Assembly (NCBI RefSeq): GCF_019924045.1 | Contig: NZ_JAHXBN010000007.1 | Span: 369,105 to 433,104 of the forward strand | Direction of reading: 5' to 3' | DNA: 64,000 bases | DNA from: Dyadobacter fermentans | GTDB taxonomy: Bacteria; Bacteroidota; Bacteroidia; Cytophagales; Spirosomataceae | Part shown: positions 58,452-64,000 of the stretch, in pieces | How positions within the stretch are numbered: the first letter of the stretch is position 1 | Layout of the letters: each line of letters begins with the position of its first letter | Translations under genes and position numbers: made by a program | Notes under the pieces: generated by a model | The model's database searches: none | Told to the model about the DNA's origin: nothing | What the model saw: the letters and a program-made list of their open reading frames with translations, nothing else

Positions 58452-59930
58452 ATGGACGAAAAACAACTCAGAAAATCTTTCATGGATCCGATCCTGGAAT
58501 GGGCCAGGGCCAATCAGAAACCCAAAGAACCACGCCTCAAAGGGCTGACCGACAGTGCGGCGACTGATGCCGTCGCCGAGCCTGAGGAAATGCCGTTTGT
58601 AGTGCCCCGGCAGTTTACAGGAAAAGACTATATCACCATGCTCCTGCACGTCGATGCGGAGATCGAACACGGGCTGATGCTGCAATACCTGTATTCGGCT
58701 TACAGCATTGGCGGGCCGCAGATCCCCGAAACATACCGCGAGCGGGTACATAACTGGAAGAATATTGTGCTGGGCATCGCCAAGGAAGAAATGGGACATT
58801 TTATATCCGTCCAGAACGTATTGAAGATCATCGGGGCGCCGCTGAACTTCGGTCGCGAGAGCTATCCCTGGGATGTACCCTTTTATCCGTTCCCCTTCAC
58901 ATTGGAAAAATTCACGCTCCGGTCGCTGGCCAAGTACGTATATGCCGAGGCGCCAGCGGAATGGCTGAGCAGCGACGATCCCGTAGCGAAGGAAATCAAT
59001 GAGACCGTGCACGCGCAAGCTTCGGACCCGCATACGGTGGGCGCGCTTTTCAAGGTTTTGCTGCAACTGATCCAGGACCCGGACGTGATCTCTGACGATG
59101 CGTTTCAGCCGGGGACTTATCCATACCAGGCCAAATTCGACGAATGGGGCCGGGGCTATGCCGGTGGCGAGAGAGGAAGCGTGAAAGACCGGTTCACCAG
59201 GAGCCCCGACGTGCTGGTGGCGCCGCTGCTCTCACGCGATGATGCCTATAATGCCCTCGAACAGATCGCCGAGCAGGGCGAGGGCGACGAGCTCGACTCC
59301 GATACTCCTTCGCATTTCGAGCGCTTTTTATTCATTTACAATGATTTCAAAGCCATTCTGAAGGAGACGGACGGCAGATTCGATCCCGCTTACAATGTTG
59401 CGACCAACCCGTTCGCGGGTGACCCCGATCACGCGGGCACCGCTTCCAACGAACCCGCCGATGAAATGGAGCAGAACGAGATCACCAGCGAGGAAGGTAT
59501 TTTGTGGGCCAATCTGTTCGACACCCGGTACAGGCTGCTGCTCAACTTTCTTGCCCACAGTTTTCTACTCGATAATGGCAACAACAATGTCGGGTCATTC
59601 ACGCCGCGCGGCCTGATCATCAACTCCACTTTCGGAGAAATGTACAATTTGCGGAGCCTCGCCACCATCCTGGTGCAAACACCGCTCTCCAAGAAAAGCA
59701 GGCTGATGGCCGGGCCGCCGTTCACATCGCCTTACAGCTTCGACCTGCCTTTCGGGGAGCATAACCGCTGGCGCCTGCACCGCGATCTGCTCGTTGCATC
59801 GGGCAATCTCATCGAAAGCCTGAAAGCACTGAAAACACAGCCGCACAGCCAGTATTTGAATGCTTTGCAGGAGATTGACCGCAAGCTGCTGGAAGCGATC
59901 GCTCAATTGATGCAGGCCGAGCTTGCCTGA
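58452..59930 (+). CDS. VioB-type ferritin-like protein
   Basis: The 492-residue protein has a ferritin-like region of the kind found in the iminophenyl-pyruvate dimer synthase VioB (PF12902-like). It has MLLHVDAEIEHGLMLQYLYS with E70xxH73 and IAKEEMGHFISVQNV with E113xxH116, both usable as diiron or other metal ligands. VioB is about twice as long, so only that half is present. It is the first gene of the LodA-like operon, 38 bp before the oxidase. The start is ATG at 58452; no signal peptide, so cytoplasmic. Family by motif memory. Confidence 0.8.
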   Translation: MDEKQLRKSFMDPILEWARANQKPKEPRLKGLTDSAATDAVAEPEEMPFVVPRQFTGKDYITMLLHVDAEIEHGLMLQYLYSAYSIGGPQIPETYRERVHNWKNIVLGIAKEEMGHFISVQNVLKIIGAPLNFGRESYPWDVPFYPFPFTLEKFTLRSLAKYVYAEAPAEWLSSDDPVAKEINETVHAQASDPHTVGALFKVLLQLIQDPDVISDDAFQPGTYPYQAKFDEWGRGYAGGERGSVKDRFTRSPDVLVAPLLSRDDAYNALEQIAEQGEGDELDSDTPSHFERFLFIYNDFKAILKETDGRFDPAYNVATNPFAGDPDHAGTASNEPADEMEQNEITSEEGILWANLFDTRYRLLLNFLAHSFLLDNGNNNVGSFTPRGLIINSTFGEMYNLRSLATILVQTPLSKKSRLMAGPPFTSPYSFDLPFGEHNRWRLHRDLLVASGNLIESLKALKTQPHSQYLNALQEIDRKLLEAIAQLMQAELA

Positions 59931-59968
59931 GTTTCTCAACATATTAAAGCCAAAAACCATTGCCGGAT

Positions 59969-62209
59969 ATGAAAATTCTAGCATTAAGAATACTTCCTCC
60001 CATTGCACTCGGGCGTCTGGGCGAATCAGACAAGCCGATGGCCGCATATGACCTTACGTTATCCAAAAACAAACCCCTGGATTTCAGAAAAATCGTGCCG
60101 GAACAGTCCTTCCAGGTGCACCCCTCTACCGGGGAAATAACGGCCTTCCAGCCCGAACGCGTCGCATTCAAAGATGCCGAAAACCTGGAAGACAAAACCG
60201 GGAAAGCGCACCCGGTGGCCCCGTTCCTCGAAGTGTTCGCCGTTACCGACGAGCAGCCGGGCCGGTTGGTACCACTCACGGTCGATTTACTGAAAAAAGC
60301 CGGCCACGAGCTGGAAGATGTTTCCTGGGATGTGCAGGTGGGTAACATCAAGATATTCAGAAGGACCAATGATGAAAATGACAAGATGTACGCGAAGATC
60401 GGCGACATCCGGTCGCACGAACTGAAACCTTTGCTGGCGCAATGCGCGAATTTTATCGAGGGTAAAACGCTGCCGCTGGGGTTTGTTCAGTTTATAAAGC
60501 CTACACCCGATTTTCCGGAAATCAGGTTCCGGTTTACGCCGGCAGCAGGGAAGGTTTACGGTTCGAGCCTGGTCAGGTTCAATAACGGAAAGGAGCAGGT
60601 GGACCCGGTGTTTGCCGGCCGCCGCGACGATCCTATTTTATATGATATCAACAAAGGTAAATGGCGCGGCTACTCGGAAACCAGCACGCCTAATCCGCTC
60701 TATACCAACCCGGCGCAGATATTTGCCGGATACTCCGATGCGAATGGCAACCAGGTGAGCTGGGGGTATCTGGATGACGAATGTGACGGGTTTGTTACCG
60801 TGAAGCTCACCGGTCGGGACGGCAAACCACTGTATGCAAAGGCGCATATCAGCGCAGGCCCTCCTGCGTACGCGCCCGACACGTTGCCTATCCGCGTGGT
60901 GTCCGACGAACTGGAACAAATTCTGAAAGGCACCGACGTAGATGGGGAAGTGACGATCGAGGAAGCCGAGGAAATCGTACGCCGCGCATTTGAAACGATC
61001 CGGCTGATGAACACGGCCATTATGAACGGCAATGCCTATGAAGGCAAGCTGAATGTGGCGAGTACGATGGTACGGCAGAATACCAACGACTTCGGGCGCC
61101 TCTACGAGCCGATTATGGCCACTTCGCTGGTAGACAATATGGCGTTGCAGGTGCTGCACGAACGTGTTTTTGCAGGCCTGAGTACCGGTGCTTCGCCCTG
61201 GTTTGAAGACCTGCTGAGGAAACCCGAAGAAATCGGAGACCTGTCGGCCAAGGCCCTTCGCAAAATGCCCGCATTGATGCGCGGCGCCGATGGCCGTTCG
61301 CTCACATTTACCAAACGGCAGATCAATATGGTTATAAAAGCGGCCGCCAGATCGCTGATGCCGGATGTGGATGCCGCGGAAGTTTCCGGCGACGATCCCC
61401 TGATACCTTCGAACCTCACTGCGCAGCTGCATTACCGCGGCAAGGGAAACCCCGTGAGCGTGTTGCCCCGTACTGCCATCTCCAACTGTTTCCCGGGCCT
61501 GGAATTCGACTTTAGAAACCTGTGGCGCCGCGCGTTTCAGGGAATTGTACTGATCGAGAACAACAACTATGTGATCGACGCCGACAAGTCGCTCGCGCAT
61601 TTGATACATCACCGCCTGGTAGCCATTGATGGTAAGCCTACCATGGTGGCCACTTCCGGGCCCGTATTTCCCGACGGCGATAGCGTGCCCCTCCGCACGG
61701 AAGCCAACCCGAACGGGGTGTCGTTCATGGAATGGTCCAATTCGATGGTGAACGTGTTGCAAAAGCAAGGGCAGCAGGTTGCATGCTATTTCACCGCTGA
61801 GCAAAGCACGCACGAGGTGGTCGTAGATTTGGATAAATTGGAAGATCCGACTTTGTATACGAAGGTTATGCTCACCGTCAACAAGGTTTTTGAAGGCGAT
61901 AGCGCCACACTTTCCGAACAGATTATTAAGCCCGGCGAACTCACCCAGGGACTTTGTGCCCCGTGGCAGAACGACTACCGCGAATGTGCCTGCTACTACT
62001 GGGCCGCCAGCCGCCCCGATTACGTGAATGTGGTGCCCGACGAGAAGGGACTCAGCACCGGCGATAGCTGGATGGCCAGGAAACGTACCGGCAAATACAT
62101 TCCCGACGATCGCGTCAATACCCGATTACTATCCTATGACGACCTGTTTATCAACTGGCAGGGCGAGCTCAACTTTATCGTGGAAGGAAAAGATGCACTT
62201 AACAGCTGA
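59969..62209 (+). CDS. LodA/GoxA-like CTQ quinoprotein oxidase
   Basis: The 746-residue protein is near the 726 residues of LodA, the lysine epsilon-oxidase. It opens ILALRILPPIALGRLGESDK, like the LodA N terminus, and has ISNCFPGLEFDFRNLWRR near residue 507. The C-terminal segment is C663-A-P-W666-Q-N-D669 followed by C673, C675 and W678 in a YYWAASRPD motif, then W730 in INWQGELNF. LodA crosslinks a Cys and a Trp into cysteine tryptophylquinone, with an Asp four residues before the Cys; D669/C673/W730 are my best matches. It would oxidise an amine or amino acid and release hydrogen peroxide. No signal peptide. The stop overlaps the radical SAM gene by 17 bp. Confidence 0.85.
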   Translation: MKILALRILPPIALGRLGESDKPMAAYDLTLSKNKPLDFRKIVPEQSFQVHPSTGEITAFQPERVAFKDAENLEDKTGKAHPVAPFLEVFAVTDEQPGRLVPLTVDLLKKAGHELEDVSWDVQVGNIKIFRRTNDENDKMYAKIGDIRSHELKPLLAQCANFIEGKTLPLGFVQFIKPTPDFPEIRFRFTPAAGKVYGSSLVRFNNGKEQVDPVFAGRRDDPILYDINKGKWRGYSETSTPNPLYTNPAQIFAGYSDANGNQVSWGYLDDECDGFVTVKLTGRDGKPLYAKAHISAGPPAYAPDTLPIRVVSDELEQILKGTDVDGEVTIEEAEEIVRRAFETIRLMNTAIMNGNAYEGKLNVASTMVRQNTNDFGRLYEPIMATSLVDNMALQVLHERVFAGLSTGASPWFEDLLRKPEEIGDLSAKALRKMPALMRGADGRSLTFTKRQINMVIKAAARSLMPDVDAAEVSGDDPLIPSNLTAQLHYRGKGNPVSVLPRTAISNCFPGLEFDFRNLWRRAFQGIVLIENNNYVIDADKSLAHLIHHRLVAIDGKPTMVATSGPVFPDGDSVPLRTEANPNGVSFMEWSNSMVNVLQKQGQQVACYFTAEQSTHEVVVDLDKLEDPTLYTKVMLTVNKVFEGDSATLSEQIIKPGELTQGLCAPWQNDYRECACYYWAASRPDYVNVVPDEKGLSTGDSWMARKRTGKYIPDDRVNTRLLSYDDLFINWQGELNFIVEGKDALNS

Positions 62210-63560
62210 AACCGAACCGGCCGTGGCGCTTGCGCGCCTGGCTGGGGCAATCGCCGCACAATCGCGGCCGAAATCGCCGTCGGCCCACCTGATCAGGGGC
62301 AGGCAGTCGCAGCTTTTCATTCCGAATGGCAGCAGGTTGTATGCGGTAGCGGGCGACGTGGAGCAAAGGATCGCGCGTGCCCTCGATGCAGGCGACGAAA
62401 TGGAGTTGCAGGATTTGCTGGTCAGATGTGGCTTGTCCGCACCCGATTATGTCGATAATACGCCCCTGGAAAGTCCCAGGCTCTACGCACTTTCGCTCGC
62501 TATTGCACAGAAATGCAATATGGGCTGTACCTATTGCTATGCCGATCAGGGTAGTTTCGGCGGGCAGGCCAAAAGTATGTCGCTGGACACGGCGCTGCGG
62601 GCAATAGACCTACTGATGGACCAATGTCCCGAAGGTGAAAAAGTGCAGCTGACATTCCTCGGCGGAGAACCACTGGCCAACCGGAAAGCGCTCAGGGAAG
62701 CGACGGCATATGCGGTGGCCAAAGCCGAAAAAAAGGGAATTAAGGTGGGCTTTTCGATTACAACCAACGGAACGATGGTCACCGAAACCGATGCCCGCTT
62801 TTTCGAGGAATATGGCTTTGCCGTCACGATCAGCCTGGACGGCATTGGCAAAAGCCACGACGCGCTGAGGCCGATGAAAGGCGGCAAAGGCAGTTTCGGG
62901 CTGATCATGCGAAACCTGGGGCCGTTGCTGGCCATGCAGGGCAAAATGCAGGTTTCAGCCCGCGTTACGGTCACCCCGCGCAACCTCGACCTGCCGGTTG
63001 TGCTGGATGAGTTTATCCAAATGGGTTTTCATAGCGTCGGTTTTTCGCCATTGCTGCGGTCGATGAACGGCCGTGACGAAATGGGGCAGGAAGAGCTTTC
63101 GGTATTACTCGAAAACATGATCGCATGCGGGCTCAATTTTGAAAAGAATGTGCTGGCAGGTAAAAGGTACCCGTTTTTGAATATGGTGAATGCATTGAAG
63201 GAAATCGACAAAGGTACGCATCGGCCGTATCCCTGTGGGGCAGGAGCTGGTTATATGGGCGTATCGGCCGACGAAGAGCTATTTGCCTGTCATCGGTTTG
63301 TGAATGAAGAGGAGGGTAAAATGGGTAACCTGAGCACGGGCATTGATGCCAGCTTGCAAAATGGCTGGCTATCATCCCGGCATGTGAGCAACCAGAGTCC
63401 ATGTACGCAATGCTGGGCCCGGTACCTGTGCGGGGGCGGATGCCACCACGAAGTAATTGCAAAAGGCCGCACCGCTTGCGACTACATCCGCTCGTGGTTG
63501 CATTATACGATACAGGCACATGAGCGGCTGGCTCGCCTGAAACCGGGGTGGAACAGATAA
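62193..63560 (+). CDS. Radical SAM/SPASM maturase, QhpD-like
   Basis: The 455-residue protein has the radical SAM cluster motif C108-N-M-G-C112-T-Y-C115 and LTFLGGEPL. Its SPASM set is C348, C366, C404-x2-C407-x5-C413-x3-C417 and C429, enough for two auxiliary [4Fe-4S] clusters. The start MHLTAETEP is at the ATG at 62193, inside the end of the oxidase gene. The opening CYADQGSFGG resembles QhpD, which makes Cys thioether links in quinohemoprotein amine dehydrogenase. It probably modifies the oxidase or another peptide in this operon. Confidence 0.92.
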   Translation: MHLTAETEPAVALARLAGAIAAQSRPKSPSAHLIRGRQSQLFIPNGSRLYAVAGDVEQRIARALDAGDEMELQDLLVRCGLSAPDYVDNTPLESPRLYALSLAIAQKCNMGCTYCYADQGSFGGQAKSMSLDTALRAIDLLMDQCPEGEKVQLTFLGGEPLANRKALREATAYAVAKAEKKGIKVGFSITTNGTMVTETDARFFEEYGFAVTISLDGIGKSHDALRPMKGGKGSFGLIMRNLGPLLAMQGKMQVSARVTVTPRNLDLPVVLDEFIQMGFHSVGFSPLLRSMNGRDEMGQEELSVLLENMIACGLNFEKNVLAGKRYPFLNMVNALKEIDKGTHRPYPCGAGAGYMGVSADEELFACHRFVNEEEGKMGNLSTGIDASLQNGWLSSRHVSNQSPCTQCWARYLCGGGCHHEVIAKGRTACDYIRSWLHYTIQAHERLARLKPGWNR

Positions 63561-64000
63561 TGGAGCAAAGTTTTGAAATAGTAGTCATCGGTGCGGGGCC
63601 AGCGGGACTCACAGCAGCCATCCGCTTACTGGAAATGGGCCATTCGGTGGCGCTGGTCGAACAGGAGGCATTTCCGCGTCCGCAGATCGGGGAGTCGCTT
63701 TCGCCCGGGGTGCGCCCTATTTTCGCCTACCTCGGAGCCGGGGCGCTGTTGGAAGATCCCTGTTACCTGCCCGATATTCCGGCCAGGGTGGCATGGAGCG
63801 AACGGGAGCCTTTGCTCGTAGAACCGGCGCAGCGCGGAGGCGGGTTAATGGTCGACAGGGCACACCTGGATGCACAGCTGCTGGCCCTGGCCGTCCGCAA
63901 AGGACTCCATGTGTTCCAACCGGCCCGGATGGTCGCATCAACATTTCAAAACGACCGGTACCAATTGAAATTACAATCCGCGGCTGGTGATTTCCGGATC
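63560..64000 (+). CDS. FAD-dependent oxidoreductase, LodB/QhpG-like (3' end outside window)
   Basis: 147 codons are visible. The start ATG shares one base with the radical SAM stop (TAATG). The N terminus has the FAD dinucleotide motif IVVIGAGPAGLTAAIRLLEM and the halogenase/monooxygenase-like PRPQIGESLSPGV, then MVDRAHLDAQLLALAVRKG. LodB (for LodA) and QhpG (for the Qhp enzyme) are flavoproteins of this class that hydroxylate the Trp on the way to CTQ. That role is inferred from context. Truncated only by the window edge. Confidence 0.9.
   Translation, partial: MEQSFEIVVIGAGPAGLTAAIRLLEMGHSVALVEQEAFPRPQIGESLSPGVRPIFAYLGAGALLEDPCYLPDIPARVAWSEREPLLVEPAQRGGGLMVDRAHLDAQLLALAVRKGLHVFQPARMVASTFQNDRYQLKLQSAAGDFRI

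Follow-up and report, generated by a model that had tools for sequence, protein, structure and literature searches.

A block of four genes at the end of a 64,000-nucleotide stretch of the Dyadobacter fermentans genome (RefSeq assembly GCF_019924045.1, contig NZ_JAHXBN010000007.1, positions 369,105 to 433,104 of the forward strand; the whole stretch is called the window below) raises the question of how the cofactor of the oxidase it encodes is built. The genes lie head to tail at a contig end of the 8.0 Mb genome and encode a ferritin-like protein (FER), the oxidase (OX), a radical S-adenosylmethionine (SAM) protein and a flavoprotein (Table 1). The packing of the four genes, with gaps of 38, -17 and -1 bp, had been observed in a first-pass annotation and was confirmed by the coordinates. 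The results support the block as that of an amine or amino-acid oxidase dependent on cysteine tryptophylquinone (CTQ), with the fold of LodA and GoxA and with a loop built in the manner of the gamma subunit of quinohemoprotein amine dehydrogenase (QHNDH); the substrate class is inferred. The CTQ is predicted at C674-W679 of OX, where it is likely to be caged by two thioethers made by the radical SAM protein. OX residues are numbered from the Asp codon at 59966 (residue 1), Met being residue 2.

Cofactor loop of OX

The CTQ of LodA is formed by C516 and W581 (PMC4417212). C516 is the cysteine of the motif PWQADFFNC, position 536 in 2ymw_A, which has 20 residues more than 3weu_A, and the corresponding motif of GoxA contains D678. 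OX reads PWQNDYREC at this site; the CTQ cysteine is therefore predicted to be C674, and the conserved aspartate is D670. The tryptophan motif is [FW]W[PA]A..P in most canonical LodA-like proteins, SWWAANLP in GoxA, CWWPAQVPD in QhpC and YYWAASRPD in OX; since the last fits W[PA]A..P, W679 is the predicted CTQ tryptophan. OX thus carries C674 within D...C and W679 within W[PA]A..P. The CTQ residues of GoxA are here taken to be C682 and W697, and the LodA aspartate is presumably D512. From cysteine to tryptophan the distance is 15-35 residues in 13 canonical loci, 65 in LodA, 6 in QhpC and 5 in OX.

QhpC has three bridges, C7-E16, C27-D33 and C41-D49, in addition to the CTQ of C37 and W43 (PMC8172795, PMC7876137). 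When the profile of the C-terminal part of OX was aligned with 120 QhpC sequences by hhalign, residues C664, D670, C674, C676, W679 and D685 fell on C27, D33, C37, C41, W43 and D49, respectively. In a column-shuffle control, none of 200 QhpC shuffles reached the score of the OX-QhpC alignment (26.7 versus a maximum of 23.9).

Conservation was examined in 80 related loci. A search with the patterns WQNDYRE and AISNCFPG had given 136 confirmed loci, of which these were kept. Residues 667-673 (with W667 and D670) and 504-511 (with C508) are hence conserved partly through the choice of patterns, while C664, C674, C676, W679 and D685 lie outside them. Two loci (L077 and L079) lacked a readable C-terminal part, leaving 79 readable rows of 81. 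All six loop residues were present in every readable row, that is, in the window protein and 78 of the 80 loci, and also in seven of the eight plasmid loci fetched, with OX relatives down to about 27-29% identity. Also Y678 and W667, the latter inside a search pattern, were invariant in the readable rows. In the eighth plasmid locus (L134, an Azospirillum plasmid) the block is broken off: a short radical SAM gene is followed by an IS3 transposase gene (L134:9455-11468), and the quinone part of OX was not found.

The segment NCFPGLEFD matched the C..PGWEVD profile of QhpC better than any of 200 shuffles. Because position 508 is Ala in 6 of the 79 rows and a Cys shortly before PGIE is found also in several canonical LodA-like proteins, the possible C508-E513 bridge was left uncounted. 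C508 and W667 were also considered as the CTQ pair and rejected: LodA C516 aligns with C674, the Ala rows speak against C508 as the CTQ cysteine, and the W[PA]A..P motif points to W679 instead of W667.

The first-pass annotation had offered extra crosslinks in the oxidase or a new peptide-derived cofactor. Invariant extra cysteines at the thioether positions of QhpC favor the former, and a novel kind of cofactor is unnecessary, as all residues of a normal CTQ are present.

Fold and family of OX

Structure and profile comparisons gave OX the overall fold of LodA (L-lysine 6-oxidase) and GoxA (glycine oxidase). The earlier suggestion of a LodA-type catalytic protein was borne out. In common with these CTQ enzymes and their partners LodB and GoxB, the block has the PGxE motif, the PWQ.D...C motif holding the CTQ cysteine, the W[PA]A..P motif holding the CTQ tryptophan and a flavoprotein gene in the operon. 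It differs from them by the added radical SAM and ferritin-like genes, two extra invariant cysteines, a cysteine-to-tryptophan distance of 5 instead of at least 15 and a flavoprotein that is longer and QhpG-like. The proposed check against LodA_C (PF18417) gave only a weak match straddling the cut-off of 25 bits (23.1 as protein, 25.3 in a six-frame search), and the scores of OX for the LodA/GoxA equivalog models NF038172 and NF038173 (20.7 and 21.8 bits) were far under the cut-offs of 600 and 750. Altogether 1307 OX-related proteins were found at E ≤ 0.001, and the name given by NCBI to those named among the best 120 of the 1307 is 'hypothetical protein'.

With QHNDH (QhpC/QhpD/QhpG) the block shares the compact loop, the CTQ cysteine and tryptophan and the Cys...Asp pairs in register, and QhpD-like and QhpG-like maturation proteins. 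The differences are that QhpC is a 79-residue subunit whereas the quinone segment of OX sits in a large LodA-fold protein, and that two of the three bridges are clear in OX.

Maturation proteins

For the radical SAM protein, TIGR03906 (QhpD) was the best of 75 NCBIfam families (E 2.9e-88, 296.6 bits), and the models of the PapB/freyrasin and SCIFF maturases, NF047865 (E 3.8e-79) and TIGR03974 (E 2.1e-61), matched as well. Its cysteines include C109, C113 and C116 of CxxxCxxC and C-terminal cysteines of the SPASM type. The tree of radical SAM proteins comprised 46 rows: 32 from the window and the loci, seven from plasmids, four annotated QhpD and three others. The four QhpD proteins formed one clade (100/100), and QhpD together with the block proteins was split (99/95) from a nif11 maturase, an unannotated clostridial protein and an archaeal one, with long branches flagged by the program. 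The earlier label of a QhpD-like protein agrees with the best-matching family.

The D. fermentans genome has a single TIGR03906 match. Twelve of 14 control genomes also gave weak matches, all of them under the cut-off, and consequently only strong ones were considered meaningful. No QhpC (PF08992) was found in the genome with a model that was positive in two known qhp records; neither was the di-heme alpha subunit QhpA (PF09099), but this model had no positive control match at all. With no detectable QhpC and a single TIGR03906 match, OX is the only evident substrate of the radical SAM protein. PapB, which groups with QhpD, makes thioethers between Cys and Asp/Glu (PMC8172795, PMC11002830). 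The PapB/freyrasin and SCIFF maturases belong to the same radical SAM/SPASM group and form non-alpha thioethers of this kind on small precursor peptides; here the substrate would be an OX of about 83 kDa (estimated from 746 aa) or, in the split forms, the quinone part as a protein of its own, about 290 residues long.

The flavoprotein gene is cut by the contig end, and its remainder, stop-free inside, was located elsewhere in the genome, on a different contig (G000:C106:162483-163652). The intact flavoprotein of the related locus L007, which is 86-87% identical to the two pieces and accompanies an OX 96% identical to that of the window, was used as a stand-in in the model scans. It scored above the QhpG cut-off (NF049967; 290-302 bits versus 240) and below the cut-off of 400 for LodB (NF038171; 124-135 bits) and GoxB (NF038174; 105-117 bits). 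The LodB cut-off is strict, since the first LodB-like control also scored under it (231). All 24 scanned block flavoproteins matched both models, QhpG with a best E of 1.6e-100 and LodB with one of 7.6e-56, while six LodB-like controls from the canonical loci showed the reverse (LodB 1.4e-82, QhpG 8.5e-53). The QhpG model was covered at positions 1-421 of 423 by the L007 protein and at 1-337 by a LodB-like control of 364 aa (L154). In the flavoprotein tree, built with 24 rows from the window and loci and four from plasmids, clades were formed by the LodB-like proteins (97/96) and by four flavoproteins beside annotated qhp genes, taken as QhpG (100/99). The label QhpG-like is based on model scores and length and not on the tree; of the two affinities proposed earlier, LodB-like or QhpG-like, the model scores retain the latter.

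Comparison with canonical LodA-like loci

The 16 canonical LodA-like loci used for contrast included eight from block-bearing genomes and eight from seven of 296 sampled genomes of the phylum. Most had about 5-6 kb on each side, though some were short on one side (L145 begins at a contig start). A LodB-like gene is present in all 16, and a QhpD-like gene was found in none of them; the sole radical SAM match near a canonical LodA (L147) was MoaA-like (PF06463). The motif could be read in 14 of the 16 proteins, several of which are near-copies (L136/L137; L138-L140 and L142). The column of C664 is Ala or Gly in all 14, and none has a Cys two residues past the CTQ cysteine. In the OX family, CTQ residues and two Qhp-type pairs of bridge residues are combined with Qhp-type maturation proteins, a combination absent from the canonical LodA-like proteins that were examined. 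The C-terminal parts of the canonical proteins gave a profile match to QhpC of 68.6%, not equalled in 200 shuffles, which suggests a common origin of the LodA-like and QhpC CTQ modules, as judged from sequence profiles.

Conservation and distribution of the block

Among the 80 loci, FER was present in 79, OX in 80, the radical SAM gene in 79, the flavoprotein gene in 77 and all four in 76. The loci lacking a gene (L038, L051, L070 and L082) sit at contig ends, the one without a radical SAM gene being cut by the contig. All four genes were in the same order on a single strand in 74 loci by script, and in 75 when L057 is counted, where an over-long OX open reading frame (ORF) holds the match in order; in L049 the flavoprotein gene is upstream. 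In plasmid records searched without motifs, a radical SAM gene lay beside OX or between OX pieces in 20 of 20 OX carriers. The radical SAM matches H1-H19 and H57 were those with OX, and from H20 on they were mostly annotated QhpD (peaB) of about 30-35% identity. The radical SAM gene is accordingly conserved beside OX in related genomes, which agrees with the first-pass reading.

The loci belong, by record names, to Bacteroidota (38) and to Alpha-, Beta-, Gamma- and Deltaproteobacteria, Verrucomicrobiota, Acidobacteriota, Planctomycetota and one actinomycete (Kitasatospora). In the genus, OX was found in 9 of 48 genomes, the radical SAM gene (E ≤ 1e-40) being adjacent in the same nine, and no such close QhpD-like gene was present without OX among the 48. 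With the OX profile the family was detected in one of 296 genomes of an even phylum sample, the source's own, and therefore the block is rare and patchy. A second match in that sample (G121, E 5.6e-4) is a canonical LodA-like locus, found also in the search for such loci.

No fifth conserved gene of the operon that might point to the substrate was found: among 658 flanking ORFs, no family occurred in more than 16 of the 80 loci. The widest flanking families in Bacteroidota resembled, by eye, a set of TonB receptor, FecR and sigma factor genes. Six loci (L045, L046, L049, L057, L059 and L061) have related large genes downstream of the block; that of L045 overlaps the last block gene by 4 bp and includes a SAM domain, adenylate cyclase, AAA and TPR. 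A protein of about 511 residues is encoded in ten loci, upstream of FER in eight and downstream of the block in two, and its copy at L063:4839-6374 has no Pfam match. A Mesorhizobium plasmid (L135) has the N- and C-terminal parts of OX, the radical SAM protein and the flavoprotein, no annotated FER, and as neighbors genes of multicopper oxidase, tyrosinases, cytochrome P460 and the octopine/nopaline dehydrogenase family.

Proposed maturation and alternatives

Every chemical step of the following scheme is inferred from the computed gene content, fold, residue conservation, motif register and co-occurrence. The QhpD-like radical SAM protein would form two Cys-S to Asp-C thioethers in the OX loop LCAPWQNDYRECACYYWAASRPD, C664-D670 and C676-D685. 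W679 would then be hydroxylated by the QhpG-like flavoprotein, C674 would be joined to W679 to give CTQ, and an amine or amino acid would be oxidised by the mature OX. The underlying QhpD and QhpG chemistry is described in PMC7876137 and PMC8172795.

Several results weigh against the scheme. The hhalign probability between OX and QhpC was just 26% (P 7e-4), the motif being short, and the spacings differ by one residue (C676-D685 is 9 versus 8 in QhpC, C674-W679 is 5 versus 6). The third bridge of QhpC has no firm counterpart in OX, and LodA of M. mediterranea has a Cys one column after that of C664, two before the Trp of PWQ. Global Foldseek TM-scores of OX against GoxA and LodA were low (0.29-0.41), and the predicted local distance difference test (pLDDT) of the OX model was below 50 at residues 670-681, the cofactor loop. 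The radical SAM protein scored under the QhpD equivalog cut-off (296.6 versus 453 bits), and the block proteins fell outside the QhpD clade, in two neighboring groups of 35 and 4 rows whose branching order was unsettled. The backbone of the flavoprotein tree was unresolved for the block flavoproteins. Finally, QhpC carries a 28-residue leader required by QhpD (PMC7876137); OX leaves no room for one, as its alignment with GoxA begins at residue 5.

An ordinary LodA-type oxidase, in which the flavoprotein alone makes the CTQ of C674 and W679 and the radical SAM protein acts elsewhere or only aids folding of the loop, would agree with the missed QhpD cut-off. It would agree also with LodA and GoxA, which form CTQ with LodB and GoxB and for which the excerpt of PMC7876137 mentions no radical SAM protein. 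Nevertheless it is unlikely. Another substrate is not evident, as FER has no Cys in its 492 residues, no QhpC was found in the genome and the packed operon holds no further gene. The two extra cysteines are invariant in the family with the radical SAM protein and missing from all 14 canonical proteins that could be read, and the flavoprotein resembles QhpG, which works on the crosslinked substrate (PMC7876137). Less probable still is a cofactor other than CTQ, with the CAC-YY-W loop joined otherwise, for example via C676, Y677/Y678 or W667. The invariance of Y678 and W667 (the latter within the pattern), the two-residue distance between C674 and C676 and the spacing off by one from QhpC would suit it, but every CTQ residue is in register with LodA, GoxA and QhpC. 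That C664, C674, C676 and nearby aspartates bind a metal or Fe-S cluster without thioethers, as three invariant cysteines clustered with acidic residues could suggest, is very improbable, since the QhpC bridges account for the same positions and the radical SAM proteins grouping with QhpD, such as PapB, form Cys-Asp/Glu thioethers (PMC8172795, PMC11002830).

The ferritin-like protein and split or fused forms of OX

The first gene had been described as ferritin-like, and the PF12902 model agreed (E 1.1e-28, above the gathering score and with a ferritin-like fold). FER is homologous to the C-terminal part of VioB, and among the closest known systems are this ferritin-like part and Caulobacter CC_0557 (3hl1). 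FER and OX together were considered as a split VioB, which was rejected because the N-terminal part had no OX match in three VioB proteins. A PF12902 gene was observed directly upstream of the canonical LodA-like gene in one of the 16 canonical loci (L144:3930-5153; in the genome of L075, Tahibacter). A ferritin-like neighbor has been reported for LodA-like genes of fungi (PMC4417212).

OX is split into two genes in 20 of the 80 loci by script (L038, L044, L053, L062, L064-L069, L071-L077, L079, L080 and the doubtful L054). In L054 (Chitinophaga pinensis YS-16) OX, the radical SAM protein and the flavoprotein are all in pieces, possibly through sequence error. The separate quinone part, about 290 residues in the three split forms measured (L064, L073 and L119), resembles QHNDH in being a protein of its own. 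In L119 the two OX genes, annotated as two by NCBI, meet near residue 460-470; there the OX model shows a linker of low confidence (residues 468-476). The order in L117 (Streptomyces) and L118 (Nostoc) is the N-terminal part of OX, the radical SAM protein and then the quinone part fused to a ferritin-like part; the annotated order is similar in L132 and L133. Such fusions point to contact between FER and the quinone domain of OX. FER probably works with OX, for example by acting on the imine or H2O2 that OX would produce or by taking part in oxygen chemistry. In violacein synthesis an oxidase makes an imine, which is processed by a ferritin-like protein. By analogy with this chemistry, and from the homology of FER to VioB, a VioA/VioB-like pairing of OX and FER may be guessed.

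Table 1. Features of the block in window coordinates, and quinone-ferritin fusions in related loci.
Feature	Position	Strand	Remarks
FER, ferritin-like protein, 492 aa	58452..59930	+	No Cys; two helical bundles predicted (PF12902-like, then bacterioferritin-like at residues ~343-492)
OX, LodA/GoxA-fold quinoprotein, 746 aa	59969..62209	+	
QhpD-like radical SAM/SPASM protein	62193..63560	+	TIGR03906 match, CxxxCxxC
QhpG-like flavoprotein monooxygenase, N-terminal part	63560..64000	+	Ends at contig end
C508...E513 in NCFPGLEFD, possible third bridge	61487..61504	+	Uncertain; cf. QhpC C7-E16, C..PGWEVD
C664, predicted thioether donor to D670	61955..61957	+	Cf. QhpC C27-D33; 79/79 readable rows
D670, predicted acceptor of C664	61973..61975	+	Counterparts: GoxA D678, QhpC D33 and the Asp four residues ahead of LodA C516
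C674, predicted CTQ cysteine	61985..61987	+	Aligned with LodA C516, GoxA C682 and QhpC C37; 79/79 readable rows
C676, predicted thioether donor to D685	61991..61993	+	Cf. QhpC C41-D49; 79/79 readable rows
W679, predicted CTQ tryptophan	62000..62002	+	Counterparts: QhpC W43 and the [FW]W[PA]A..P Trp of LodA-like proteins and GoxA; 79/79 readable rows
D685, predicted acceptor of C676	62018..62020	+	79/79 readable rows; hhalign register
Quinone-ferritin fusion	L117:10885-12774		
Quinone-ferritin fusion	L118:8961-10757		

Meaning for CTQ enzymes

CTQ enzymes, QhpD and QhpG are already known. For a QhpD-like protein paired with a LodA-like one, no description was found in titles and abstracts of open-licence literature, among the matches listed. 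Two routes to CTQ have been described, that of LodA and GoxA with a flavoprotein and that of QHNDH with a radical SAM protein and a flavoprotein. There is an even chance that the family is a living intermediate between the gamma subunit of QHNDH and the oxidases LodA and GoxA, all of them sharing a homologous quinone module (PGxE ... D...C ... W[PA]A..P). The module would then be cage-free in canonical LodA, caged within the LodA fold here, present in split or ferritin-fused relatives and stripped down in QhpC, and the radical SAM protein would place crosslinks in an enzyme of about 83 kDa, around the cofactor of that enzyme. A LodA-fold enzyme on the second route would show radical SAM crosslinking of a large enzyme and not of a peptide, and would permit a direct test of the purpose of the thioether cage, as the same fold would be available with and without it. 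It would also give a testable function to the large group of proteins related to OX.

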